Source: Arachnia rubra
GTDB taxonomy: Bacteria > Actinomycetota > Actinomycetes > Propionibacteriales > Propionibacteriaceae
NCBI RefSeq assembly: GCF_019973735.1
Contig: NZ_AP024463.1
Coordinates: forward strand, 1,364,001 to 1,428,000
DNA: 64,000 nt
Direction: 5' to 3'
Shown: positions 29,235-38,938 of the stretch, in pieces
How the letters are laid out: each line of letters starts with the position of its first letter
Position numbering within the stretch: position 1 is the stretch's first letter
Program-made: the position numbers and the translations under genes
Notes under the pieces: model-generated
Told to the model about the DNA's origin: nothing
What the model saw: the letters and a program-made list of their open reading frames with translations, nothing else
The model's database searches: none

Positions 29235-29545
29235 AGCACGTAGATGAGATCCGATGCTCCAGGGACCCCCTGCCGACTGTCGTGGAGACTAGGGAGTAAT
29301 CATACGGGGCTGCCGGTGTTGCAAAACTACTTACCAGGGTGGGTACGGCCTGTAGTCTTGAATAAATTCGTGAATTTGATCTGGTTAGCCAGTGGATCTG
29401 GTATCAGAGTATCGTAGTTATCGTTGGCAGAATTTTAATTTATCCATTGTCCAATCAAATTAGCTGAGTGGAAACCCTTAATTCTGGGCCAAGAGATTTA
29501 AGATACCGGAATAATAGAGAGCGCCTAGGGGGAGTGAAGGCTGGT
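29235..29545. other. AT-rich intergenic patch upstream of the excalibur protein
   Basis: From about 29320 to 29520 base composition falls to roughly 40 percent GC by eye, far below the surroundings. It holds a perfect inverted repeat AAATTC-GT-GAATTT at 29364-29377 and two direct copies of GATCTGGT at 29378-29385 and 29395-29402. No open frame of note is present. The patch probably holds the excalibur gene promoter and an operator, and may mark an old insertion junction. Confidence 0.45.
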
Positions 29546-29989
29546 ATGAAAACTATTTGGTACAAGACACGCTGGGTGGCAGCGGGGCTTGCCGGGATTG
29601 TGGGTCTCGGGCTTGGCAGCGGGATGGGGGAGCACAAACAACAACCCGCTGCTGTCCCGGGTGTGCAGACCACCGTCTCTGTTACGCCTGCCCCTATCGT
29701 GGAGACAGTTACGGTCGCAGCGACAGCCACTGCTGTTGAAACTATTGAGACGACGGCCACCGCAACCGAGACCATACCGGCGGAGACCATGCCGTCTACA
29801 GACGCCCCCACAACTGTGTCACCCTCAGAGTCGACCCCCACAGCAAAAGAAACCATGCAGCAGTCAGAGGTCTATTACAAGAGCTGTGCAGAGGCCAAGG
29901 CGGCTGGGGTTGCTCCCATGCGCAAGGGCGAGCCTGGTTATCGCCCTGAGCTTGACCGGGATAAGGACGGAGTGGCCTGCGACAAGTGA
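29546..29989 (+). CDS. Exported protein with C-terminal excalibur calcium-binding domain
   Basis: The 147-aa protein has a signal or anchor helix (KTRWVAAGLAGIVGLGLGSG, residues 7-26), a Thr/Pro/Glu-rich linker of about 80 residues that is probably extended and extracellular, and a C-terminal excalibur domain: SCAEAKAAG, GEPGYRPELDRD and DKDGVACDK. The DxDxDG motif resembles the EF-hand calcium loop, and the paired cysteines match the family. Excalibur domains occur on secreted actinobacterial and Bacillus surface proteins and nucleases; no nuclease domain is present here. The ATG at 29546 has gaagg five bases before it. The gene sits alone downstream of an AT-rich patch and converges with the ara-like cluster. 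Confidence 0.85.
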   Translation: MKTIWYKTRWVAAGLAGIVGLGLGSGMGEHKQQPAAVPGVQTTVSVTPAPIVETVTVAATATAVETIETTATATETIPAETMPSTDAPTTVSPSESTPTAKETMQQSEVYYKSCAEAKAAGVAPMRKGEPGYRPELDRDKDGVACDK

Positions 29990-30025: not shown

Positions 30026-31693
30026 TCAGCCTTGCGACTTGGTCACAAGGATCTGTTTGCGGCATGCCTTGAGGTGGTGCATGACCTCGTTGCGGCCTTT
30101 CCCGAAGTAATCATGCAGCACCCGGTATTCCCGGTATAGGTCGTCGTAGGCGGCGACATTCTCCGGGATGGGGGTGAATGTGGTCTCCGGGGTCACTTCC
30201 CGGTGGGCCATCACCGGGGCTGCCTCTCGGACATCCGGGTATTCACCGGCGGCGACCGCGGCATAGATCGCCGACCCGTGGGCGCCTGAGGCCACCGACG
30301 GGCAGATCGCCAGCGGCAGGTTGGTCACGTCCGCGTAGATCTGCATCAGCAGCGGGTTCTTGACCAGCCCTCCCGCGACCACCAGGTCACCCACCTCGAC
30401 GCCCGCCTCCCGGAAGGCCTCGATGATCACCCGGGTGCCGAAGGCCGTCGCCTCCAGCAGCGCCCGGTACTGATCCTCCGGTGTGGTGGTCAGCGTGAGA
30501 CCGAGCATGAGACCGGTCAGCTCGGTGTCATCCAGGATCGACCGGTTCCCCGAATGCCAGTCGAGGGCCAGCAGCCCATGCTCACCGACCTGCTGCGCTG
30601 CGGCCAGCTCGGTGAGGTACTCGTGTACGCCTATGCCCTTGGCCGCGGCTGCCTCGACATATGCCGGCGGGACACAGGTGTCGACAAACCAGCCGAAGAT
30701 GTCACCGACCCCGGCCTGCCCGGCCTCATAGCCCCACAGACCCTTCACGATCCCGTCCGGCACGATGCCGCCGATTCCCGGCACCTCGCCAAAGCTCTCC
30801 GAGGTCATCATGTGACACGTCGAGGTGCCCATGATGAGCGTCAGCTGTCCTGGTTCGCAGGCGTTCGCGGCAGGCACCGTCGCGTGGGCGTCGATGTTCG
30901 CGGCTGCGACGGCGATGCCCTCCGGCAAGCCGGTCAGCGCCGCCGCCTCGGCTGTCAGCGATCCCACGCGGTCACCGGGCTTTGCCACCGGCTGCGGCAG
31001 CAGCTCAAGCAGCCGGGAGAAACCGGGAGCCATCGCTTCCAGGACCTCAGCCGGTGGGTGGGAGCCGTCCACGAAGTTCCCCTTGTACCCGGCCAGCGAC
31101 ATGGAGGCCGCCAGCTCGCCGGTGAGACGCTGGATGATCCAGTCGCCGGCCTCCACGAAATGACTGGCCGCATCCCAGACCTCCCGGTCCTCTTCGAACA
31201 GGGCCAGGGCCTTCGCCAGCTGCCAGTCCGCCGACACCTCTCCGCCATAGCGGGCCAGGGTTTCTGGTGCCAGCTCAGCCAAAACCTTGTTGACGACCTT
31301 GCCCTGCTGCTGGGAGGCGTGATGCTTCCACAGCTTCACGTAGGCATGAGGACGCCTGGCAAACTCAGGCTTCTCACACAGCGGCGCATAGGACGAGTCG
31401 GTGGGGAAGACCGTGCAGGAGGTGAAGTCGACAGCCAGGCCGACGACATCACCGGGCGACACACCCGAGTCGGCAACGGCCTGGGGCACCGCCTTGCCCA
31501 GAACCTCCAGATAGTCGGCGGGCACCTGCAGAGCCCAATCCGGAGGCAGCTGCTGTCCTTCCAGCTCACGATCGATCACCCCGTGCGGGTAGCTGTGCTC
31601 AGCGCTCGCGAGAATCTTCCCGTCCGCCACAGATACGACGACCGCCCGCCCCGAGAGGGTGCCGAAATCGATTCCTACAACTGCTTTGCTCAT
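30026..31693 (-). CDS. araB: L-ribulokinase-like FGGY kinase (AraB type)
   Basis: The 555-aa protein is a full-length AraB-type kinase: VGIDFGTLSGRAVVV at the N-terminus, AVDFTSCTVFP, HAYVKLWKHHASQ and EVSADWQLAKAL in the substrate domain, GTSTCHMM and WGYEAGQAGVGDIFGWFV, then the nucleotide-site motif VAGGLVKNPLLMQIYADV. AraB phosphorylates L-ribulose at C5 (some also accept ribitol or D-ribulose). The start is clear from aaggag six bases before the ATG. It is the last gene of the cluster, 25 bp after araM. Neither arabinose isomerase (araA) nor ribulose-phosphate epimerase (araD) is present, so its true ketose substrate is open. A second FGGY kinase lies two genes upstream. Confidence 0.88.
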   Translation of the reverse strand: MSKAVVGIDFGTLSGRAVVVSVADGKILASAEHSYPHGVIDRELEGQQLPPDWALQVPADYLEVLGKAVPQAVADSGVSPGDVVGLAVDFTSCTVFPTDSSYAPLCEKPEFARRPHAYVKLWKHHASQQQGKVVNKVLAELAPETLARYGGEVSADWQLAKALALFEEDREVWDAASHFVEAGDWIIQRLTGELAASMSLAGYKGNFVDGSHPPAEVLEAMAPGFSRLLELLPQPVAKPGDRVGSLTAEAAALTGLPEGIAVAAANIDAHATVPAANACEPGQLTLIMGTSTCHMMTSESFGEVPGIGGIVPDGIVKGLWGYEAGQAGVGDIFGWFVDTCVPPAYVEAAAAKGIGVHEYLTELAAAQQVGEHGLLALDWHSGNRSILDDTELTGLMLGLTLTTTPEDQYRALLEATAFGTRVIIEAFREAGVEVGDLVVAGGLVKNPLLMQIYADVTNLPLAICPSVASGAHGSAIYAAVAAGEYPDVREAAPVMAHREVTPETTFTPIPENVAAYDDLYREYRVLHDYFGKGRNEVMHHLKACRKQILVTKSQG

Positions 31694-31718
31694 ATGTATC
31701 TCCTTCGGTCTCCCGGGG

Positions 31719-33080
31719 TCAGGCTCTCGGGGCCTGGCGGCCCCAGAAACCATCGGGTGCGAACAGTTCATCCACCAAAGCGTCCAGGAGGCCGGTTTCC
31801 AGTGCGAGATCCAGGACGGTGTAGCGCTTGCGGATCATCTGGGCGCGGGTATAGGTGGCCCGGAACCTTTCCCAATCCAACCCGATGTCCTGCGGATGGG
31901 CGGGGGCGCCGGCGGCGCGCAGCATCTCCTGCAGCTCGCTGGCGGGCAGCAGCTGATTCCGCAGCCTCACCGACACATCGGGCCACACAGAGGCCAGCAG
32001 CTCCAGACGAGCCCTCAACTGTTCGGGCGGAAGCCATTTGGCGAGGGCCTGGACGACGGTCTCCTCAACCAGGCGGGGATCGGGATGGAGCCTGCGGACC
32101 TCGGCCTCCATCGCATCCCGGCCAGGCCAGGCCGCGACCACGGAGTCGATGTCGAGGTCTGACAGATCCCGTTCCAGCAGCCGCTCGTAGAGGGCGGCGA
32201 TCGCCACCGTCCCGATGCCGACCTTGAAACCGTGCGACAGGCGCCTGGGGGTGACGTCCACCCCATGCCCCTCCATCTCCCAGAGATGGCTGAACTGGTG
32301 TTCCGCACCGGAGGCAGGCCGGCTTGACTGATGGGCCTGCATGGCGAGCCCGCTCATCACGAGCCCCTCCACCAGATCGCCGGTGGCCGCGACATCACCG
32401 GCGGCCAGGTCGGCCGGTCGTGACAGTGCGCCACGCAACGGGCCCTGGACCAGCTCCCAGACGCTCTGGTCGATGGCCTCGGCACCCAGCACGTCGGCGA
32501 GAATCCAGTCCGCCCCGGCGGGCACCTTGCCCAGCAGGTCACCATAGCCAGAGGCCGTCATCACCTGCGGGGCGGCTGCCATCAAGGCCAGATCGGCAAT
32601 ACAGCCGTAAGGCGCCGGGCAACTCAGCGTCTGTTTGAAGCCGTCGAGGGCGATGGAGGCGCCAAAAGCGGTGTAGCCATCCATGGAGGCCGCCGTCCCC
32701 ACCACCATGTAGCGCCGGCCAAGTTCCCCGGAGGCACGTTTCACAATGTCGTTGAGGGTACCCGATCCGACAGCGACGGCGACGGCGTCCAGCGGGGCCA
32801 GGATATCCCGCAGGGCCTCGCAGTTCTCGTATTTCGCGTAGAGCTCCGGGTCACCGGGGAAGACATGCGGCGTGGCCAGCTCCACCCCAGCCGCCGCCAG
32901 TGCGCTGGAGACCTGTTTCCCGGCCAGCTCGAAGGTGCGCTCGTCTGCGACCACGACCGCTTGGACTGGGCCGAAAAGGTCCTTGAAGACCTGCCCGGCC
33001 TGGCCGATGGCACCTTCGCCGATCACCACAGCCTTGGTGTCGGTGGCATCCTGCAATGCCTGGGTGATCAGGTCCGCCAT
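31719..33080 (-). CDS. araM: Glycerol-1-phosphate dehydrogenase family protein (AraM/EgsA-like)
   Basis: The 453-aa protein belongs to the iron-containing-alcohol-dehydrogenase-like G1PDH family: GSGTLNDIVKRAS is the NAD-binding loop, GTAASMDGYTAFGASI and SGYGDLLGK the substrate site, with metal-ligand histidines in GAEHQFSHLWEM and RRLSHGFKVGIGT. Bacillus AraM reduces dihydroxyacetone phosphate to sn-glycerol 1-phosphate and is encoded within the arabinose operon. Here it sits between an FGGY kinase (one base between the genes) and an AraB-type kinase. Actinobacteria do not use G1P lipids as their main membrane lipid, so a catabolic substrate such as a sugar phosphate or polyol phosphate is equally possible. 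The motifs are intact. Confidence 0.85.
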   Translation of the reverse strand: MADLITQALQDATDTKAVVIGEGAIGQAGQVFKDLFGPVQAVVVADERTFELAGKQVSSALAAAGVELATPHVFPGDPELYAKYENCEALRDILAPLDAVAVAVGSGTLNDIVKRASGELGRRYMVVGTAASMDGYTAFGASIALDGFKQTLSCPAPYGCIADLALMAAAPQVMTASGYGDLLGKVPAGADWILADVLGAEAIDQSVWELVQGPLRGALSRPADLAAGDVAATGDLVEGLVMSGLAMQAHQSSRPASGAEHQFSHLWEMEGHGVDVTPRRLSHGFKVGIGTVAIAALYERLLERDLSDLDIDSVVAAWPGRDAMEAEVRRLHPDPRLVEETVVQALAKWLPPEQLRARLELLASVWPDVSVRLRNQLLPASELQEMLRAAGAPAHPQDIGLDWERFRATYTRAQMIRKRYTVLDLALETGLLDALVDELFAPDGFWGRQAPRA

Positions 33081-33081
33081 A

Positions 33082-34644
33082 TCAGCCTCGCTTCGTGTTC
33101 TCGCGATCCACCATGTCGTGGATCATCGGCTGGAGCCGCGGATAGGTGTTGGCGTAGGCGTCGACGAAGTACTGGTATTCCTCATGCCGCTGCTGGTTTG
33201 GCTCCAGCAGGTCGATCTCATGAACCATCTCCTTGGCCGCCGCGCCGAGATCGGGGTAGAGCCCCGCGCCGACCGCCGCCAGCATGCAGGAGCCCAGCAC
33301 CACCGCGTCACCGACCTCGGTCAGGGCGATTGGGACCCCGGTGACGTCCGCATGCATCTGCATCCAGTCGCGGCTCTTCGTCGCGCCGCCGGCGGCGACG
33401 ATCTTCTTGACCTCGAAGCCAGCCGCAGACATGGCCCGCAGGTTGTGGGCGGTGCCGTAGCAGACCGACTCCTGGATGGCGCGGTAGAAGTGAGCTGGGC
33501 CGTGGTGCAGCGAGAGCCCCCAGATCACGCCGCGGGCCTTCGAATCCGTGTACGGGGTGCGGTTGCCCTGGAAATACTCGTTGATGATCAGCCCTTCGGA
33601 ACCGGGTGGCAGGTCCTTCGACTGCTTGTTGAGGATGTCGTAAACATTGAGCCCGGTGGCCTCAGCGGCCTGGATGAGGTCGCGGGCGAAGTTGTCCTTG
33701 AACCATTTGAGCACCGACCCGGTGGACACCTGGCCGCCCTCGACGGTGTACTGCCCCTTGACGACGCCATCGGTGTAGGCGCCGAAGAAGCCCTTGCCGT
33801 GGATGGGCTTGTCGGTCTGTCCCGTGAGCACATGGGAGGAACCGGTGATCAGCGCCATCACGCCAGGCTCGACCACGCCCAGGCCGATCTGCCCGGCCCA
33901 GGCATCCGCTGGGCCCTGCGCGACGGGGATGCCTGGGCGCAGCCCGAGGAGCTGGGCAGCGATCACCGAGAGCTCGCCGACGGGGGTGCCGAGGTCCACG
34001 ACGTTCTCGGGGATCTTGCTGAAGACGTCCCCGCAGCCGATGGTCTCGTAGAAGTCGGTGGGCCAGCCGCCCTGGTCCCGGTTGTAGTACATGCGCAGCG
34101 CAGCCGAGTTGATGTTGGTGGTCCACTCGCCGGTCAGCTTGTAGGTCACCCAGTCGGGGGCATCCACCAGGCGGTATGCCGCGTCGTAGGTCTCGCGCTC
34201 GTTCTCCCGCAGCCATGCGGCTTTGAAGGGGTACCACTCGGCCGTGGCGGGGGCGGTGCCCCTGCCGTTGTAGAGCCGCGCCACCGAATCCGACTTCTCA
34301 GCGCGGGCCGCCTGCTCGGTGGCGCGCACGTCCATCCACATGATCGCAGGCCGGAGGGCCTCGCCACGCTTGTCCATGGCGACCACAGTCATGGTGGTCG
34401 CGTCGTAGGAGATGCCCTTGATGGCGGCAGGGGAGACACCCGAGGCCGCGATCACCTTGCGGCATGAGGCCTGCAAGGCCTCCCACCATTCTTCTGGATC
34501 CTGCTCAGCCCAGCCTGGATGGGGATGGGTGGTGCGGTAGGTGGTGGCGGCGAAGGACACCGGGTGGCCTGCCAGGTCGAAGATGGCAGCCCTCACGCTT
34601 TCGGTGCCGAAATCGATGCCGAGGAGGTAGGTGTTTTCAGTCAT
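33082..34644 (-). CDS. FGGY-family carbohydrate kinase, pentulose/tetrulose type
   Basis: The 520-aa kinase has the FGGY N-domain (LLGIDFGTESVRAAIFDL, GISYDATTMTVVAM, IMWMDVRATEQA) and C-domain (ITGSSHVLTGQ, EGLIINEYFQGNRTPYTD, IVAAGGATKSRDWMQMHADV). It is distinct from the AraB-type kinase two genes downstream and looks closer to the D-ribulose/xylulose or erythrulose-type branches, but the substrate is not readable from motifs. It begins ten bases after the HAD phosphatase stop and ends one base before araM, so the four genes are tightly packed and cotranscribed. Two different FGGY kinases in one operon suggests two related substrates or a branched route. Confidence 0.85.
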   Translation of the reverse strand: MTENTYLLGIDFGTESVRAAIFDLAGHPVSFAATTYRTTHPHPGWAEQDPEEWWEALQASCRKVIAASGVSPAAIKGISYDATTMTVVAMDKRGEALRPAIMWMDVRATEQAARAEKSDSVARLYNGRGTAPATAEWYPFKAAWLRENERETYDAAYRLVDAPDWVTYKLTGEWTTNINSAALRMYYNRDQGGWPTDFYETIGCGDVFSKIPENVVDLGTPVGELSVIAAQLLGLRPGIPVAQGPADAWAGQIGLGVVEPGVMALITGSSHVLTGQTDKPIHGKGFFGAYTDGVVKGQYTVEGGQVSTGSVLKWFKDNFARDLIQAAEATGLNVYDILNKQSKDLPPGSEGLIINEYFQGNRTPYTDSKARGVIWGLSLHHGPAHFYRAIQESVCYGTAHNLRAMSAAGFEVKKIVAAGGATKSRDWMQMHADVTGVPIALTEVGDAVVLGSCMLAAVGAGLYPDLGAAAKEMVHEIDLLEPNQQRHEEYQYFVDAYANTYPRLQPMIHDMVDRENTKRG

Positions 34645-34654
34645 GGTGGTTCTC

Positions 34655-35491
34655 TCAATCTTGTTCTGTCCAGCCGAGCTCGTCCCACAGCCGCTGGGGG
34701 ATGAGCCGGTCTATGCGGTCAAGCACATAGGTGGGTTTGTGGTTCTCTTCAAGTGCTGCGACGTCCTGGGCGGTGGTCTCGCCCGTCAGCACCAGACAGG
34801 AGGCCATGCCGGTGTCAAGCGCCATCTGGATGTCAGTGCCGAGCCGGTCCCCGACCATCACGCAGTCAGCAGGATCGACCTCCAGGCCACGGAGGGCCTC
34901 CTCCAGCATGATGGGGGAGGGCTTGCCCAGGTTCGCTTCCGCCTTGACCCCGGTGCAGGTCTCGATCGCTGCGGTGATCGCGGCGCAGTCAGGCTCTCCA
35001 CGTCCACCCGGGAAGGGGCAGAACCGGTCCGGGTTGGTCTGGACCAGGATGGCGCGACGGTGAAACCAGATCGCATCGAAGGCGGTCTGCAGCTTGGCGT
35101 AGTCGAAAGTGCGGTCGTAGGAGGCGACGACGACATCGATCTGCTCGGGGTCCTCACTCAGCCGGAAACCGGCCTCGGTGAGCGCGCGTTTCAAGGGCTG
35201 CTCACCGACGACGAAGAGGGTGGCGCCGGGATGATGCTCCTGCAGCCAGCGTGTGGTTGTCACCACCGTGTTCGCGATGTCCGTGATCTCGGTCGGCAAT
35301 CCCAGCCGGGCCAGCTTCTCAACGTACTGCTGTGGGTCCTTCGTCGGGTTGTTGGAGAGGAACCGCACCGGGATCCCGCGGCGGCGTAACTCCCCGATCA
35401 ACCGGGCTGCGCCAGGCAGCAGGTGATCGCCCAGATAAATCGTGCCGTCCAGGTCGAATACATAGGCCTGGTGCAGCTCGGTTGGCGGCAT
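34655..35491 (-). CDS. HAD-superfamily sugar-phosphate phosphatase, NagD/AraL type
   Basis: The 278-aa protein has HAD motif I DLDGTIYLGD, motif II FLSNNPTKD, the C2 cap between, the lysine in LGKPSPIMLEEAL and motif III MVGDRLGTDIQMA. This is the NagD (class IIA) subfamily, which includes AraL, the promiscuous sugar-phosphate phosphatase of the Bacillus arabinose operon. Its likely job is to remove toxic or dead-end phosphorylated sugars that build up in the pathway. The ATG at 35489-35491 is chosen because aaggaaaacc precedes it; a longer frame upstream lacks a site. It follows a hairpin and may have its own promoter, ten bases ahead of the FGGY kinase. Confidence 0.85.
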   Translation of the reverse strand: MPPTELHQAYVFDLDGTIYLGDHLLPGAARLIGELRRRGIPVRFLSNNPTKDPQQYVEKLARLGLPTEITDIANTVVTTTRWLQEHHPGATLFVVGEQPLKRALTEAGFRLSEDPEQIDVVVASYDRTFDYAKLQTAFDAIWFHRRAILVQTNPDRFCPFPGGRGEPDCAAITAAIETCTGVKAEANLGKPSPIMLEEALRGLEVDPADCVMVGDRLGTDIQMALDTGMASCLVLTGETTAQDVAALEENHKPTYVLDRIDRLIPQRLWDELGWTEQD

Positions 35492-35626
35492 TGGTTTTCC
35501 TTCCTGGAACCTGAGTGTGTCGTGCATTCGCCCAGGTTCCTCTTTCCAGATAGGGCAGCCTCGCTGCGTGCACCCCGCTCACGGCACGTCCAGTACCGTT
35601 TCGCTGACTGCCTCAGCGTGGCATCC

Positions 35627-35649
35627 GCCCCGGAGCCAGGCTCCGGGCG
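35627..35649 (-). terminator. Hairpin between the membrane protein and HAD phosphatase genes
   Basis: CCCGGAGCC at 35629-35637 and GGCTCCGGG at 35639-35647 form a near-perfect palindrome, effectively a 7-bp stem with a CCAGG loop. It lies about 20 bp downstream of the membrane protein stop. With no T-run it may be an incomplete terminator that lowers expression of the kinases relative to the isomerase and transporter. The remaining 130 bp up to the phosphatase gene hold no gene. Confidence 0.45.
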
Positions 35650-35670
35650 ACGGACCCCAGGCGCCCGCCC

Positions 35671-36768
35671 CTAGAACAATGGGGCGGCGATGTTCGCCAC
35701 GGAGACGATGATGGTGTTGGCGATCCAGATCGCGGCTGCCGGCGGATCGAAGTGGGTTGTGCCCCGGTCGTGGAACAACCGCGCCTGGATCTCGGCCAGC
35801 CATGCGGCAAACATGCCCGCCACCACTGCGGCCAGCAGGGCCACAGTGGCCATCATGATGAACTGGCCTTTGACGCCGGCGTCCAGCACGTTGCGGCTGT
35901 TGTCGAACAACGCGACCAGTGAGATTCCCCTATCGCTCATGGTGTTCCAGAAGTCCTGGCCGGCTGAGCTGCCGATCAGGCCATCCGCCAGCACCGGTAG
36001 GAAGGCCACGGAGGCCAGGCCAGCGCTGATCGTGATGTGGTGGGTCACCGGCATCTCGGCGCCAAGGATCAGGAACATAACGCAGAGAGCGGAGATCGCG
36101 AACGCGAAGGTCTGCGCGTTGCCGGTCGCTGCCAGTTTGGGGAAGGCCAGCGCGATGAACAGCGTCGCACCACCAGATAGCAGCCCGAACATCGCTCCGA
36201 GCGGAAGGTACTGGCTCGGTTTCTCCTGGTAGCGCAGCCAGGCCGCGTCATCGCTGGGGGCGATCTTCCCGAGGAAGGACGTGGAGTCGTTGAACTTCTC
36301 TCGGTTCAGGAAGTTGCCGCCCGCGACGAGACGCGCCACGACAGCGGACAGCACCACTGTCAGAGCCACCGAGTCGGTGTGACTGCCGAACCACGGGATT
36401 TTGGTGATGAGGTTCTGGACGACATATCCGAAGACCCCGAATGCTGCGCCCACCCAGAGCACGTCGGGCTTGCCTAACCGCGCCAGCGGACTGGTAGCGT
36501 CCTTGCCGTCGGCGTATCCGCGCCGAGCAGCGTATGCCGCGGCGCCCACGCCGCCGGCGAAGGCGATATGGGGTCCGGCGAATGGCCCGAAGGCCAGATA
36601 GGTGAAGCCTGCTGTCGACTCGGTTCCGAGGTAGATGCCGAACGAGGTCAGCACCGTGAAGCCGGTGATGGCGAAGGCGAAGTTGCCGCCGATGGCGGCA
36701 CCGAAGAACCCGCCTGCGATGGCGACGGCGAGGCCGAAAAGATAACTGGCGGTTCCGGGATCGAACAT
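35671..36768 (-). CDS. Unknown polytopic membrane protein, probable sugar/polyol transporter of the cluster
   Basis: The 365-aa protein is almost entirely hydrophobic, with about ten predicted helices (for example YLFGLAVAIAGGFFGAAIGG, VLWVGAAFGVFGYVVQNLI, FAFAISALCVMFLILGAEM). Glycine-rich segments (AGPHIAFAGGVGAAAYAA) and a conserved-looking polar stretch MPVTHHITISAGL recall transport pores. I cannot place it in MFS, PTS EIIC or ABC families. It starts with aaggaac four bases before the ATG, 29 bp after the RpiB-like gene. Because no other transporter accompanies the catabolic genes, uptake of the substrate is the most economical role, but this is inference. It has no ATPase or PTS partner in the window. 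Confidence 0.75.
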   Translation of the reverse strand: MFDPGTASYLFGLAVAIAGGFFGAAIGGNFAFAITGFTVLTSFGIYLGTESTAGFTYLAFGPFAGPHIAFAGGVGAAAYAARRGYADGKDATSPLARLGKPDVLWVGAAFGVFGYVVQNLITKIPWFGSHTDSVALTVVLSAVVARLVAGGNFLNREKFNDSTSFLGKIAPSDDAAWLRYQEKPSQYLPLGAMFGLLSGGATLFIALAFPKLAATGNAQTFAFAISALCVMFLILGAEMPVTHHITISAGLASVAFLPVLADGLIGSSAGQDFWNTMSDRGISLVALFDNSRNVLDAGVKGQFIMMATVALLAAVVAGMFAAWLAEIQARLFHDRGTTHFDPPAAAIWIANTIIVSVANIAAPLF

Positions 36769-36797
36769 CTTTGTTCCTTAACTGGTTTCCTGGGGAG

Positions 36798-37259
36798 TTA
36801 GCTGGTTTTGGGCTCGTAGGAGCTGATGGCGGCCACCTTGGGGCCGGAGGATGAACTGGGGTCGAAGGTGTATCCGAGCCACTCACGTACCAGGCGGCGC
36901 GCCAGCTGGAGGCCGATCACGCGTTCGCCCAGGGTTAGTACCTGAGCGTCGTTTGACAGGACCAGGCGTTCGACGGAGAAGCTGTCATGGGCGACCGAGG
37001 CACGGATGCCCGGCACCTTGTTGGCTGCTATGGCCATTCCCATGCCCGTGCCACACACCAGCAAGGCCCGGTCGGCCTCACCCGCAGCCACCTTTTTGGC
37101 TGCGTCGACGGCCACGTGCGGATAGTCGATGTCCTGCCCGGGTGAGACGCCCACATCTATGACCTTGGTGACGCGCTCGTCAGCCTCAAGGTCAGCCTTC
37201 AGGGTCTCCTTGTAGTTCACACCGGCGATGTCCGCGCCTACGACGATAGTAAGTCCCAT
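36798..37259 (-). CDS. RpiB/LacAB-family sugar-phosphate isomerase (tetrulose/pentulose-phosphate type)
   Basis: The 153-aa protein has the family core LVCGTGMGMAIAANKVPGIR with the catalytic cysteine, and HDSFSVERLVLSNDAQVLTLG with the active-site histidine. The N-terminal DHAG of canonical RpiB is replaced by DIAGVNYKE, losing the phosphate-side histidine, and the C-terminus (REWLGYTFDPSS) recalls the erythrulose-4-phosphate isomerase subgroup more than housekeeping RpiB. The ATG at 37257-37259 is preceded by gagga; a TTG four codons earlier is less likely. It is the first gene of the sugar cluster, just downstream of a candidate operator. The precise substrate is an inference. Confidence 0.8.
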   Translation of the reverse strand: MGLTIVVGADIAGVNYKETLKADLEADERVTKVIDVGVSPGQDIDYPHVAVDAAKKVAAGEADRALLVCGTGMGMAIAANKVPGIRASVAHDSFSVERLVLSNDAQVLTLGERVIGLQLARRLVREWLGYTFDPSSSSGPKVAAISSYEPKTS

Positions 37260-37395
37260 GCCTGTCCTCAACTTCCTTGTACGGGGGGTGGTAGGAAGAG
37301 TAACAGCGAAGCTGTGAAAAACACCATAGATTATGGTTTGGAAAAGTATTATCCCTAGTCAAACCGGCGTGTCGCAGCTCAGGGGGAGTGGTTGA
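37260..37395 (-). promoter_or_regulatory. Promoter/operator region of the sugar cluster
   Basis: This 136-bp gap separates the DeoR-type regulator from the first catabolic gene. It is AT-rich between 37310 and 37360 and contains the perfect 15-bp inverted repeat ACCATA-GAT-TATGGT at 37323-37337, a good candidate operator for the adjacent regulator. On the minus strand TTGACT (a near-consensus -35) lies upstream of the repeat, but no well-spaced -10 follows it. Confidence 0.5.
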
Positions 37396-38208
37396 TCACT
37401 CGGCTATGACGACCTCTACACCGTAGCTGTTCAACTCCTCACGGACCGCCTGCGGGGTTGCGGCATCGACCACCACGGTGTCGAAGTCGGTGAGTTCCGC
37501 AAAGGTGTAGAGCGCCTTGCGGGTGAACTTGGTGTGATCCAGCAGCAGGTACCGCCTGCTGGCGGATGCGATCATCGCCTGCTTGACCTGCACTGCGTTC
37601 TCGTAGGGATGCTGGCAGCGCCTCCCGACCACCCCGGAGGCCGACATCACGCAGTGATCAGCCTGCCAGGACAGCAGATTGGAAGCGGCGGTCGGTCCCA
37701 TCATCGCGTGGGCCCAGCTCTCGTATTCGCCGCCCGTCAGCAACAGGCGGACGCCGTGCATCTGCTTCGCCTCGTTCGCCACCAGCAGGGAGGTCGTGAT
37801 CACGGTCAGAGGGTGTACCCCCTCTAGAGCGCGCAACACCCACAATGCCGACGTCGAGTCGTCCAGCATCACGGAGCTTCCCTGACCGATCCGGGGAGCC
37901 AGCGCCTCGGCCATTGAGTGCTTCATCTCCGGGCTCTGCTGGAGGCGGAATTCGGCATCGGCCTCACTGAGGCTCGTAGCGACGGGATGGACGATACCCC
38001 GGTCCAGGTGAACGAGGCCAGCCTGCTCGAGATTCGCCACATCCCGGTAGATGGTCATCACCGAGACGGCGACCACCCGGGCCAGGTCCTCGACACGGAC
38101 GCCTCCCTGCGATATGACGTGCTCGGCTATCACCTGCCGCCGGCCCTGGGGGCTTTGAGGTGCGGACGTCTGTAGGCGGTGGAACTCGGGCTGGTGGGTT
38201 GGGCTCAT
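37396..38208 (-). CDS. DeoR/GlpR-family transcriptional regulator
   Basis: The 270-aa protein has an N-terminal winged helix with the DeoR signature (RVEDLARVVAVSVMTIYRDV, where most members have S-x-x-TIRRDL) and a C-terminal sugar-phosphate sensor of the RpiA/GlpR type (MLDDSTSALWVLRAL, LTGGEYESWAHAMMGP, LLLDHTKFTRKALYTF). These repressors are released by a phosphorylated intermediate. It lies directly upstream of the isomerase, transporter and kinase genes on the same strand and is the obvious candidate to control them through the palindrome at 37323-37337. The start is uncertain: ATG at 38206-38208 or ATG at 38251-38253, the latter overlapping the DedA gene; neither has a good ribosome-binding site. 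Confidence 0.85.
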   Translation of the reverse strand: MSPTHQPEFHRLQTSAPQSPQGRRQVIAEHVISQGGVRVEDLARVVAVSVMTIYRDVANLEQAGLVHLDRGIVHPVATSLSEADAEFRLQQSPEMKHSMAEALAPRIGQGSSVMLDDSTSALWVLRALEGVHPLTVITTSLLVANEAKQMHGVRLLLTGGEYESWAHAMMGPTAASNLLSWQADHCVMSASGVVGRRCQHPYENAVQVKQAMIASASRRYLLLDHTKFTRKALYTFAELTDFDTVVVDAATPQAVREELNSYGVEVVIAE

Positions 38209-38242
38209 CTTCTGGACGGGGTAGGGGACAACCCTTCCAACT

Positions 38243-38938
38243 CTAGACTTCATCCCCGGTGTCGTGGGCTGAAGACGTGACTTCCTGCTGCTGCGGGGCA
38301 GCGCGCCTCGAACTGCGCAGCCTGACGGCGACGAACCAGGCCAGAGCGGCCACGCAGGCGGCTATCACCAGTTTCAAGAAGACGTCCACGTACCCCTCGA
38401 CCACTGTCCAGTTCGCGCCCAGCAGATAACCGGCGCCGATCAGGATGGTGTTCCAGATGGCGGCGCCCGCCGTGGTCAGCAGGGTGAACTGCCATGGATT
38501 CATGCGGGTGATCCCGGCGGGGATGGAGATGAGTGACCGGAACACCGGCACCATGCGTCCCGTGAAAACAGTCCAGCCTCCCCACCGCTGGAAGAACGCC
38601 TCAGTGCGGTCGATGTCGGATGTCTTGACCAAGGGCATCTTGGCCAGGATCCGGCGGGTTCGCTCCCGTCCCAGCCACGCCCCTACCCCATACAGGGCCC
38701 AGGCTCCCACTACGGAGCCGGAGGTGCACCAGAGGATCGCCGAGAGGACGGTCATGCTGGAGCTGCCGGTGCCTGCGGAGAAACCTGCCAGGGGCAGGAA
38801 AACCTCGGACGGCAGGGGCGGGAACAGGTTCTCAAGAGCGATGAGCAACGCTGCCCCGGGACCGCCGAGGGCCGTCATGATCCCGACGGCCCAGGCCGCG
38901 ATCCCGGTCAGTGAATCCGCAGTGGTCTCCAGCAGCAC
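38243..38938 (-). CDS. DedA/SNARE-associated family membrane protein
   Basis: The 231-aa protein has the DedA core: ENLFPPLPSEVFLPLAGF, the helix pair around SGSVVGAWALYGVGAWLG, and GRMVPVFRSLISIPAGITRMN, with four to five predicted membrane spans and a short cytoplasmic tail. DedA proteins include scramblase-like undecaprenyl-phosphate flippases and keep membrane potential and cell-envelope balance. I chose the GTG at 38936-38938 because AGAGGAG precedes it by five bases; ATG, TTG and GTG codons further upstream have no site. It lies upstream of the DeoR-type gene on the same strand, but a functional link with the sugar cluster is unlikely. Confidence 0.85.
   Translation of the reverse strand: MLLETTADSLTGIAAWAVGIMTALGGPGAALLIALENLFPPLPSEVFLPLAGFSAGTGSSSMTVLSAILWCTSGSVVGAWALYGVGAWLGRERTRRILAKMPLVKTSDIDRTEAFFQRWGGWTVFTGRMVPVFRSLISIPAGITRMNPWQFTLLTTAGAAIWNTILIGAGYLLGANWTVVEGYVDVFLKLVIAACVAALAWFVAVRLRSSRRAAPQQQEVTSSAHDTGDEV

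Follow-up and report, generated by a model that had tools for sequence, protein, structure and literature searches.

What does a gene cluster that resembles the Bacillus arabinose operon do in a bacterium whose genome yields neither araA nor araD? The question is raised by a 64,000-nucleotide stretch of Arachnia rubra (positions 1,364,001-1,428,000 of its one-contig genome of 3,316,972 bases; hereafter the window), which carries genes for a DeoR-type regulator, an RpiB/LacAB-family isomerase, a membrane protein of family DUF7973, a HAD-IIA phosphatase, two FGGY kinases and an AraM-family dehydrogenase. The first-pass annotation had proposed that the cluster serves to break down some other ketose or polyol, possibly a tetritol, and this proposal is upheld by the conservation of the cluster, the contexts of its transporter, the pairing of AraM with phosphotransferase system (PTS) genes and the isomerase signature. 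We propose, with a probability of roughly 0.6, that the genes of the cluster form an operon for the breakdown of small sugar alcohols by way of phosphorylated intermediates, erythritol being the likeliest substrate; the substrate, the order of steps and the activities are deduced from sequence and context. It looks like a previously unrecognised route for the uptake and catabolism of erythritol and perhaps also of ribitol. A polyol is favoured over a ketose because of the genomic contexts of DUF7973 and the pairing of AraM with PTS genes.

Layout of the cluster

The genes are transcribed from the minus strand in the order regulator, RpiB, membrane protein, HAD-IIA phosphatase, FGGY kinase 2, AraM and AraB-type kinase 1, and are given below in window coordinates with profile scores and model cut-offs.

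37396..38253, minus strand: DeoR/GlpR-type regulator; longest open reading frame (ORF), an internal start being possible; DeoRC 130 bits (cut-off 31.8), HTH_DeoR 31 bits
37323..37337, minus strand: weak candidate operator, the inverted repeat ACCATA-ATC-TATGGT, read directly about 78 bases upstream of the RpiB ATG
36798..37271, minus strand: RpiB/LacAB-family isomerase; ATG at 37259 the probable start; LacAB_rpiB 148 bits (cut-off 24.7)
35671..36768, minus strand: DUF7973 (PF25928) membrane protein, proposed polyol facilitator
34655..35527, minus strand: HAD-IIA phosphatase (PGP/NagD/AraL kin), proposed metabolite-repair or control phosphatase; TIGR01460 122 bits (cut-off 100)
33082..34644, minus strand: FGGY kinase 2, proposed erythritol kinase; FGGY_N and FGGY_C domains, no NCBIfam model above cut-off
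31719..33080, minus strand: AraM-family (Fe-ADH_2, PF13685) dehydrogenase of 453 residues, proposed polyol-phosphate dehydrogenase; 109 bits (cut-off 28)
30026..31771, minus strand: FGGY kinase 1, AraB-type; ATG at 31693 the likely start; TIGR01234 ribulokinase equivalog 669.5 bits (cut-off 583)

Each of the seven ORFs is uninterrupted on the minus strand, close to the positions first described, and the families to which the genes had been assigned agree with the profile matches (TIGR01234, Fe-ADH_2, FGGY_N/FGGY_C, HAD-IIA, LacAB_rpiB and DeoRC); the endpoint first given for the cluster, 38208, falls inside the DeoR ORF (37396-38253). The top-scoring model for the HAD-IIA protein is TIGR01452, at 163 bits and under its cut-off of 202. 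From RpiB to kinase 1 the intergenic gaps range from 1 to about 143 bases, the largest separating the membrane protein from the HAD gene, and this spacing suits a single putative operon, of which the DeoR protein would be the likely local repressor. AT-rich inverted repeats at about -54 to -100 were present in 12 of the 36 upstream regions read (a count made without a shuffle control), with differing sequences; a single DeoR operator common to the relatives was rejected, since the repeats vary by species. A promoter scan returned one site against 1.0 in shuffles.

The cluster and arabinose catabolism

An AraB-type kinase, an AraM homologue and a HAD-IIA protein are all found together here, as they are in the ara operon of Bacillus subtilis, which includes araB, araL and araM, and the cluster could on these grounds assist in the use of L-arabinose, the accessory part that AraL and AraM play in Bacillus. 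It differs from the Bacillus operon in lacking araA and araD and in adding an FGGY kinase, RpiB, DUF7973 and, in relatives, transketolase. The absence of an arabinose isomerase and epimerase, first noted for the locus alone, extends to the complete genome: araA was not found there by a search whose controls were positive in 5 of 14 genomes, E. coli and B. subtilis included, and araD was not found either, as the sole Aldolase_II domain detected is part of a rhamnulokinase-aldolase fusion. This apparent fusion of rhamnulokinase with a class-II (rhamnulose-phosphate-type) aldolase spans 826 residues (L006:85-2565, plus strand).

The distribution of araA points the same way. In a sample of 198 family genomes (Propionibacteriaceae by inference), with kinase 2 called at E <= 1e-100, araA occurred in 107 genomes, kinase 2 in 41 and both in 14. 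Thus, araA was present in 14/41 genomes with kinase 2 and in 93/157 of the others (odds ratio 0.36, p = 0.005), and the result was similar when only close copies of kinase 2 were counted (araA in 13/36, odds ratio 0.41, p = 0.026), both values being uncorrected for kinship. Kinase 2 and araA avoid rather than accompany each other. The view that this is not an arabinose operon therefore stands, with araA and araD not found in the genome and a cluster that does not track araA in the family; on the same two grounds we consider the role of arabinose accessory ruled out for practical purposes, its residual probability being the slightest of all those weighed here.

A locus of like content has been filed under L-arabinose before: excerpts of a study of Propionibacterium freudenreichii describe, in the strains studied, a second arabinose locus with two araB genes, araM and araL, and remark that these genes are non-essential for arabinose use in B. 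subtilis (PMC4437456). This locus is probably the same cluster, which in the type strain DSM 20271T lies at about 2.39 Mb, a map position similar to that of the second arabinose locus as far as those excerpts give it. Elsewhere in the DSM 20271T genome, the araB beside araA is in three ORF pieces (L132:7765-9550, plus strand), while the kinases of the cluster are open.

Conservation of the cluster

When the membrane protein family was used to scan 84,980 species genomes, 92 relatives emerged; the 80 best were retained and fall in 79 loci. Conservation was counted by score thresholds in loci L007-L053 (n = 47), in which DUF7973 is present by construction. A HAD gene stands beside DUF7973 in 36 of these 47 loci, and among the 36 we found RpiB in 27, kinase 2 in 31, AraM in 31, kinase 1 in 19, DeoR in 31 and transketolase in 15, with HAD, kinase 2 and AraM jointly present in 28. 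Some of the gene absences possibly reflect contig ends, because several contigs are short. The one copy of transketolase that was checked scores 759 bits on TIGR00232 (cut-off 682). The order DeoR-RpiB-DUF7973-HAD-FGGY kinase-AraM, in some loci extended by the AraB-type kinase and often followed by transketolase, recurs in Propionibacteriaceae and Actinomycetaceae, so that the comparison of gene order suggested by the first-pass annotation does reveal a conserved neighbourhood.

More distant arrangements keep part of this content. A Eubacterium metagenome-assembled genome (L059) combines kinase 1, AraM, HAD, RpiB, a gene of the transaldolase/fructose-6-phosphate-aldolase family, a split transketolase, kinase 2, a second RpiB, ribulose-phosphate epimerase and DUF7973. 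One stretch of a Rubrobacter plasmid holds, as annotated, three FGGY kinases, two AraM genes, RpiB, HAD-IIA, a dihydroxyacetone kinase (DAK) and transketolase; DUF7973 was not matched in it. Four Micropruina loci (L012, L013, L015 and L027) retain DUF7973 and HAD, with AraM in three and RpiB in most, and have glpABC and a GpsA-like gene in the cluster's vicinity in place of the FGGY kinase. A GpsA-like gene adjoins AraM in several loci.

The isomerase signature

One pointer to the substrate is the RpiB-family isomerase. We compared it with two reference loci: L131, a rhizobial plasmid locus that is ery-type by gene order, though not annotated as ery, with an FGGY kinase, a GlpD-like gene, an epimerase, two regulators, a triose-phosphate isomerase (TIM) gene and RpiB; and L089, an Arthrobacter plasmid locus that is tetritol-type by gene content, with a DAK kinase, a TIM-family protein, RpiB, two alcohol dehydrogenases and DeoR. 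The alignment reveals a signature, HD..S.ER...SN[ND], common to the isomerases of the window, L131 and L089, whereas the other RpiB of the window genome reads SE.YSAE..RRHNN at the aligned positions. By this signature and its alignment with L131, the window enzyme is of the EryI type. The signature is present in 27/27 RpiB copies scoring >= 150 in loci L007-L053 and, in its strict form, in 39 of the 45 RpiB ORFs read; the second copies of L009 and L028 have the canonical pattern, and four copies fall outside both strict patterns (those of L019 and L107 and two of L059, the second of which is canonical-like by eye).

In the RpiB tree, the window copy groups with every sampled cluster copy except that of L107 (17 of 18) and with the Arthrobacter L089 copy (support 100/99), apart from the genome's other RpiB, in a tree with several long branches. 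The closest solved structures, 3qd5 and 3sdw (177 and 176 bits, the next at about 105), of fungal origin, both carry the signature, as does 5ifz. Profile scores separate the two RpiB proteins of the genome in the same direction: on the general RpiB model the window copy reaches 140 bits and the other 177, and on NF051858, a D-erythrulose-4-phosphate isomerase model, 141 and 115. Excerpts of work on Yarrowia report impaired erythritol assimilation upon deletion of an RpiB-type protein that shares 48% identity with Brucella EryI (PMC5992420). From these contexts, we infer that the signature marks tetrose-phosphate isomerases, and tetrose phosphates would therefore be indicated for the window cluster.

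The membrane protein and AraM

The membrane protein, first described as having ten helices, does have about ten long helices in its predicted model. It gave no match in the copies of Pfam and NCBIfam searched, and its family, PF25928 (DUF7973), comes from precomputed assignments to a 99%-identical database entry and to other listed relatives. Two DUF7973 models bear a weak resemblance to urea channels, and Foldseek gave no match at E <= 0.001 for either. Outside the cluster (L047-L085 minus L050 and L059, both of which carry it; n = 37), 12 of 37 loci have genes for glycerol kinase, glycerol-3-phosphate (G3P) dehydrogenase, dihydroxyacetone kinase or diol dehydratase in the same stretch, some of these genes being identified by curated models. 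Judging from these contexts and the weakly channel-like fold, DUF7973 would admit the polyol.

AraM belongs to the family of glycerol-1-phosphate (G1P) dehydrogenases, although it scores 161 bits on the G1P dehydrogenase equivalog NF002022, missing the cut-off of 413. Residues D181, H261, H265 and H283 are invariant in 9/9 sequences, and the metal ligands are presumably among them. There are 137 AraM homologues in 84 of the 198 family genomes. Within 5 kb, 37 of the 137 have kinase 2 (which corresponds to 38 of 60 kinase matches, fragments included) and 31 have the glucitol PTS component EIIBC-GUT (31 of 59 PTS matches, one of the paired matches being weak and below cut-off), where about 0.3 would be expected by chance in a 3.2-Mb genome. 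None of the 137 is close to both. Since 28 PTS matches have no AraM nearby, the pairing is not general. The window genome itself has a second AraM, which terminates an operon of GpsA-like, PRD regulator, GutM, SrlA, SrlE, SrlB and AraM genes:

L136:8551-15339 (about 950.5-957.3 kb of the window genome), minus strand: glucitol-type PTS-AraM operon

This glucitol (Gut/Srl) arrangement, in which genes for the PTS and for an AraM homologue lie together in the window genome and in 30 other family genomes, differs from the cluster in that the PTS phosphorylates at uptake, whereas the cluster has a cytosolic kinase. Because kinase and PTS both deliver a phosphorylated polyol, the simplest shared role for AraM is that of an enzyme that oxidises polyol phosphates, which is probably what it does. 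The earlier suggestion that AraM reduces a triose phosphate thus gives way to oxidation as the likelier direction, given the second AraM at the end of a glucitol-type PTS operon and the negative search of the window genome for PcrB, which would be its partner in forming a glycerol-1-phosphate lipid. An archaeal-type lipid role for AraM was rejected on this latter ground.

Glycerol would be a further reading of the same contexts: AraM would form sn-glycerol 1-phosphate, either for lipid synthesis or as part of a glycerol route, and the other genes of the cluster would handle glycerol. The family to which AraM belongs, the occurrence of DUF7973 in glycerol loci and the glpABC genes adjoining the Micropruina clusters are in its favour; yet PcrB was not found, the G1P dehydrogenase equivalog is missed by far, and two pentulose-type kinases, a sugar-phosphate isomerase and a transketolase would be superfluous for glycerol, so that we hold this to be very improbable.

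Searching plasmids for AraM and kinase 2 brought up further loci of polyol type, from rhizobia and Acidiphilium (L116, L118), in which AraM lies beside HAD-IIB and a GlpD-like gene; these loci were not used for assignment. Here G1P-type and G3P-type dehydrogenases are adjacent, perhaps inverting a carbinol.

Proposed erythritol pathway

In the pathway that we propose, FGGY kinase 2 would phosphorylate erythritol, and AraM would use NAD to oxidise the phosphorylated polyol at the carbon adjoining the phosphate group, giving L-erythrulose 1-phosphate, as family chemistry and context suggest. The handedness of such a scheme is coherent. The erythritol kinase EC 2.7.1.27, described from Propionibacterium pentosaceum, yields D-erythritol 4-phosphate, whose carbinol next to the phosphate can be derived to be configured as in sn-glycerol 1-phosphate, the substrate of AraM. 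The mirror-image erythritol phosphate is formed in Brucella, where a GlpD-like enzyme carries out its oxidation, which agrees with sn-glycerol 3-phosphate. L-erythrulose 1-phosphate is reportedly named in the title of a 1968 paper by Wawszkiewicz.

A TIM-type step would then convert L-erythrulose 1-phosphate to D-erythrulose 4-phosphate, from which erythrose 4-phosphate would follow, judging by the signature of RpiB and the presence of a linked transketolase. In P. freudenreichii, a linked second TIM could serve for the former conversion; in the window genome, the sole TIM found could do so, unless AraM gives D-erythrulose 4-phosphate directly. The HAD enzyme would remove side products or surplus sugar phosphates, a role that would fit PGP/Pho13-type phosphatases, which clear 4-phosphoerythronate, a by-product of erythrose 4-phosphate. 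Where AraB-type kinase 1 is present, in about half of the loci, it probably extends the substrate range to a pentitol or pentulose, for instance ribitol. The sequence of L-erythrulose 1-phosphate, D-erythrulose 4-phosphate and erythrose 4-phosphate is the one followed by LerI and DerI, according to excerpts of PMC10733421.

Fermentation data from cluster-bearing species are consistent with this scheme. In P. freudenreichii DSM 20271T, one stretch (L095) holds DAK, TIM, DeoR, RpiB, DUF7973, HAD, kinase 2, AraM, kinase 1 and transketolase, and between DeoR and RpiB the opposite strand carries a short-chain dehydrogenase ORF; the linked TIM is one of two in this genome. The strain ferments erythritol and adonitol (PMC4619572, seen in excerpt), and 21/21 P. 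freudenreichii strains use both, the accessible portion of that study stating that genes for neither pathway were found (PMC4437456). Acidipropionibacterium jensenii, which carries the cluster (L050), ferments erythritol, adonitol and both arabitols in all strains, as partial text has it (PMC6920887). For Arachnia, the literature searched yielded nothing usable on phenotype. Biotypes of Cutibacterium acnes are defined partly by erythritol fermentation, according to excerpts of PMC2924382. Separately, an in-frame TGA interrupts kinase 2 in a Cutibacterium-like genome (L096:8455-10119, minus strand), and strain-dependent erythritol use in C. acnes might be linked to breaks of this type.

Ribitol (adonitol), perhaps with L-arabitol, as the main substrate is the chief rival. 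An FGGY kinase and AraM would then yield a pentulose phosphate that RpiB and transketolase pass to the pentose phosphate pathway, with erythritol handled by other genes. Kinase 1 does exceed the cut-off of the AraB-type equivalog, adonitol is fermented by the same species (in the partial texts cited above), S. meliloti EryA accepts adonitol and L-arabitol too (PMC3599248, in excerpt), and the Eubacterium cluster has, besides its transaldolase/fructose-6-phosphate-aldolase-family gene and second, canonical-like RpiB, a ribulose-phosphate epimerase of 264 bits (cut-off 213). However, all 27 RpiB copies counted above carry the erythritol-type signature, the TIM and DAK genes linked to the cluster in P. 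freudenreichii suit tetruloses, and 17 of the 36 loci with DUF7973 and HAD, some of them on short contigs, gave no kinase 1. We therefore rate a pentitol as an unlikely, though appreciable, candidate for the main substrate.

Several observations weigh against erythritol as the substrate or against the steps drawn above. In the kinase tree, kinase 2 forms its own clade, neighbour to the Rubrobacter plasmid kinases and apart from rhizobial EryA (the L131 kinase), which sits on a long branch, while kinase 1, which groups with Priestia megaterium AraB (100/100), is of the AraB type and favours a pentose. The window cluster has nothing that corresponds to EryB or EryC, and the Micropruina loci have no FGGY kinase within the stretch. 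The window RpiB passes TIGR02133, a model named for ribose-5-phosphate isomerase (180 bits, cut-off 168), and misses NF051858 (cut-off 240); the Arthrobacter tetritol-type RpiB likewise falls under the latter cut-off, at 143.5. Half of the AraM homologues (69/137) have no kinase 2 and no glucitol-type PTS gene nearby. A single TIM was found in the window genome, and at least two TIM genes occur in 15/41 kinase-2-positive genomes and in 44/157 of the others (p = 0.34); a second TIM gene was thus rejected as a pathway marker, and the TIM protein tree was uninformative. The linked TIM of P. freudenreichii passes the curated triose-phosphate isomerase model (300, cut-off 293), because of which it may be an ordinary TIM.

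To these must be added a suggestion made for P. pentosaceum (PMC10733421, in the excerpts available), in which erythrulose 1-phosphate is cleaved rather than isomerised. Erythritol would then still be the substrate, with an aldolase splitting L-erythrulose 1-phosphate into dihydroxyacetone phosphate and formaldehyde and with a different role for RpiB. One gene of the Rubrobacter cluster is annotated as a fructose-bisphosphate aldolase; the window cluster, however, has no aldolase gene (its relatives were not searched for aldolases), and the RpiB signature and linked transketolase indicate erythrose 4-phosphate, which makes this route improbable.

Comparison with known erythritol systems

The proposed erythritol pathway shares with the Brucella/Rhizobium ery operon (EryABC, EryH, EryI; compared via L131, with the gene order taken from excerpts of PMC3599248) an FGGY polyol kinase, a polyol-phosphate dehydrogenase, an RpiB of the same signature and a DeoR regulator. 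The product of the ery operon is erythrose 4-phosphate, according to excerpts of PMC5992420. The two differ in that the window cluster has an AraM-family enzyme in place of GlpD-like EryB and DUF7973 in place of the ABC transporter, and has neither EryC nor a linked TIM. With the Mycobacterium smegmatis-type tetritol pathway (EltD, LerK, LerI, DerI; compared via L089), the cluster shares an RpiB of the same clade, 61% identical, and in P. freudenreichii the TIM and DAK genes are linked likewise. In that pathway, as excerpts of PMC10733421 describe it, oxidation of the polyol precedes phosphorylation of the ketose, whereas here the FGGY kinase seems to act first.

A broader generalisation may be drawn, more tentatively than the assignment to erythritol. 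The AraM family, known for glycerol-1-phosphate dehydrogenases with archaeal-type chemistry, may in these bacteria comprise general polyol-phosphate dehydrogenases fed by FGGY kinases or by glucitol-type PTS, and DUF7973 may comprise widespread polyol channels with a urea-channel-like fold. Together, they might constitute a third, so far unrecognised layout for erythritol catabolism, whose handedness (G1P-type) mirrors that of Brucella (G3P-type).

In the open literature, we found no title or abstract that ties the cluster, DUF7973 or AraM to erythritol or polyol phosphates, subscription journals lying largely outside this scope. If the proposed assignment is true, it would provide a genetic basis for propionibacterial erythritol fermentation, a trait of dairy propionibacteria without known genes, as excerpts of the 21-strain P. 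freudenreichii study have it (PMC4437456), and a function for DUF7973; it would also take the function of AraM beyond glycerol 1-phosphate, and the arabinose label inherited from Bacillus would be corrected. The cluster makes the question of the erythritol genes directly testable in a food organism.

At the downstream end of the cluster, the window encodes on the plus strand a protein with an Excalibur domain (29468-29989, 58 bits), convergent with the end of the kinase 1 gene.

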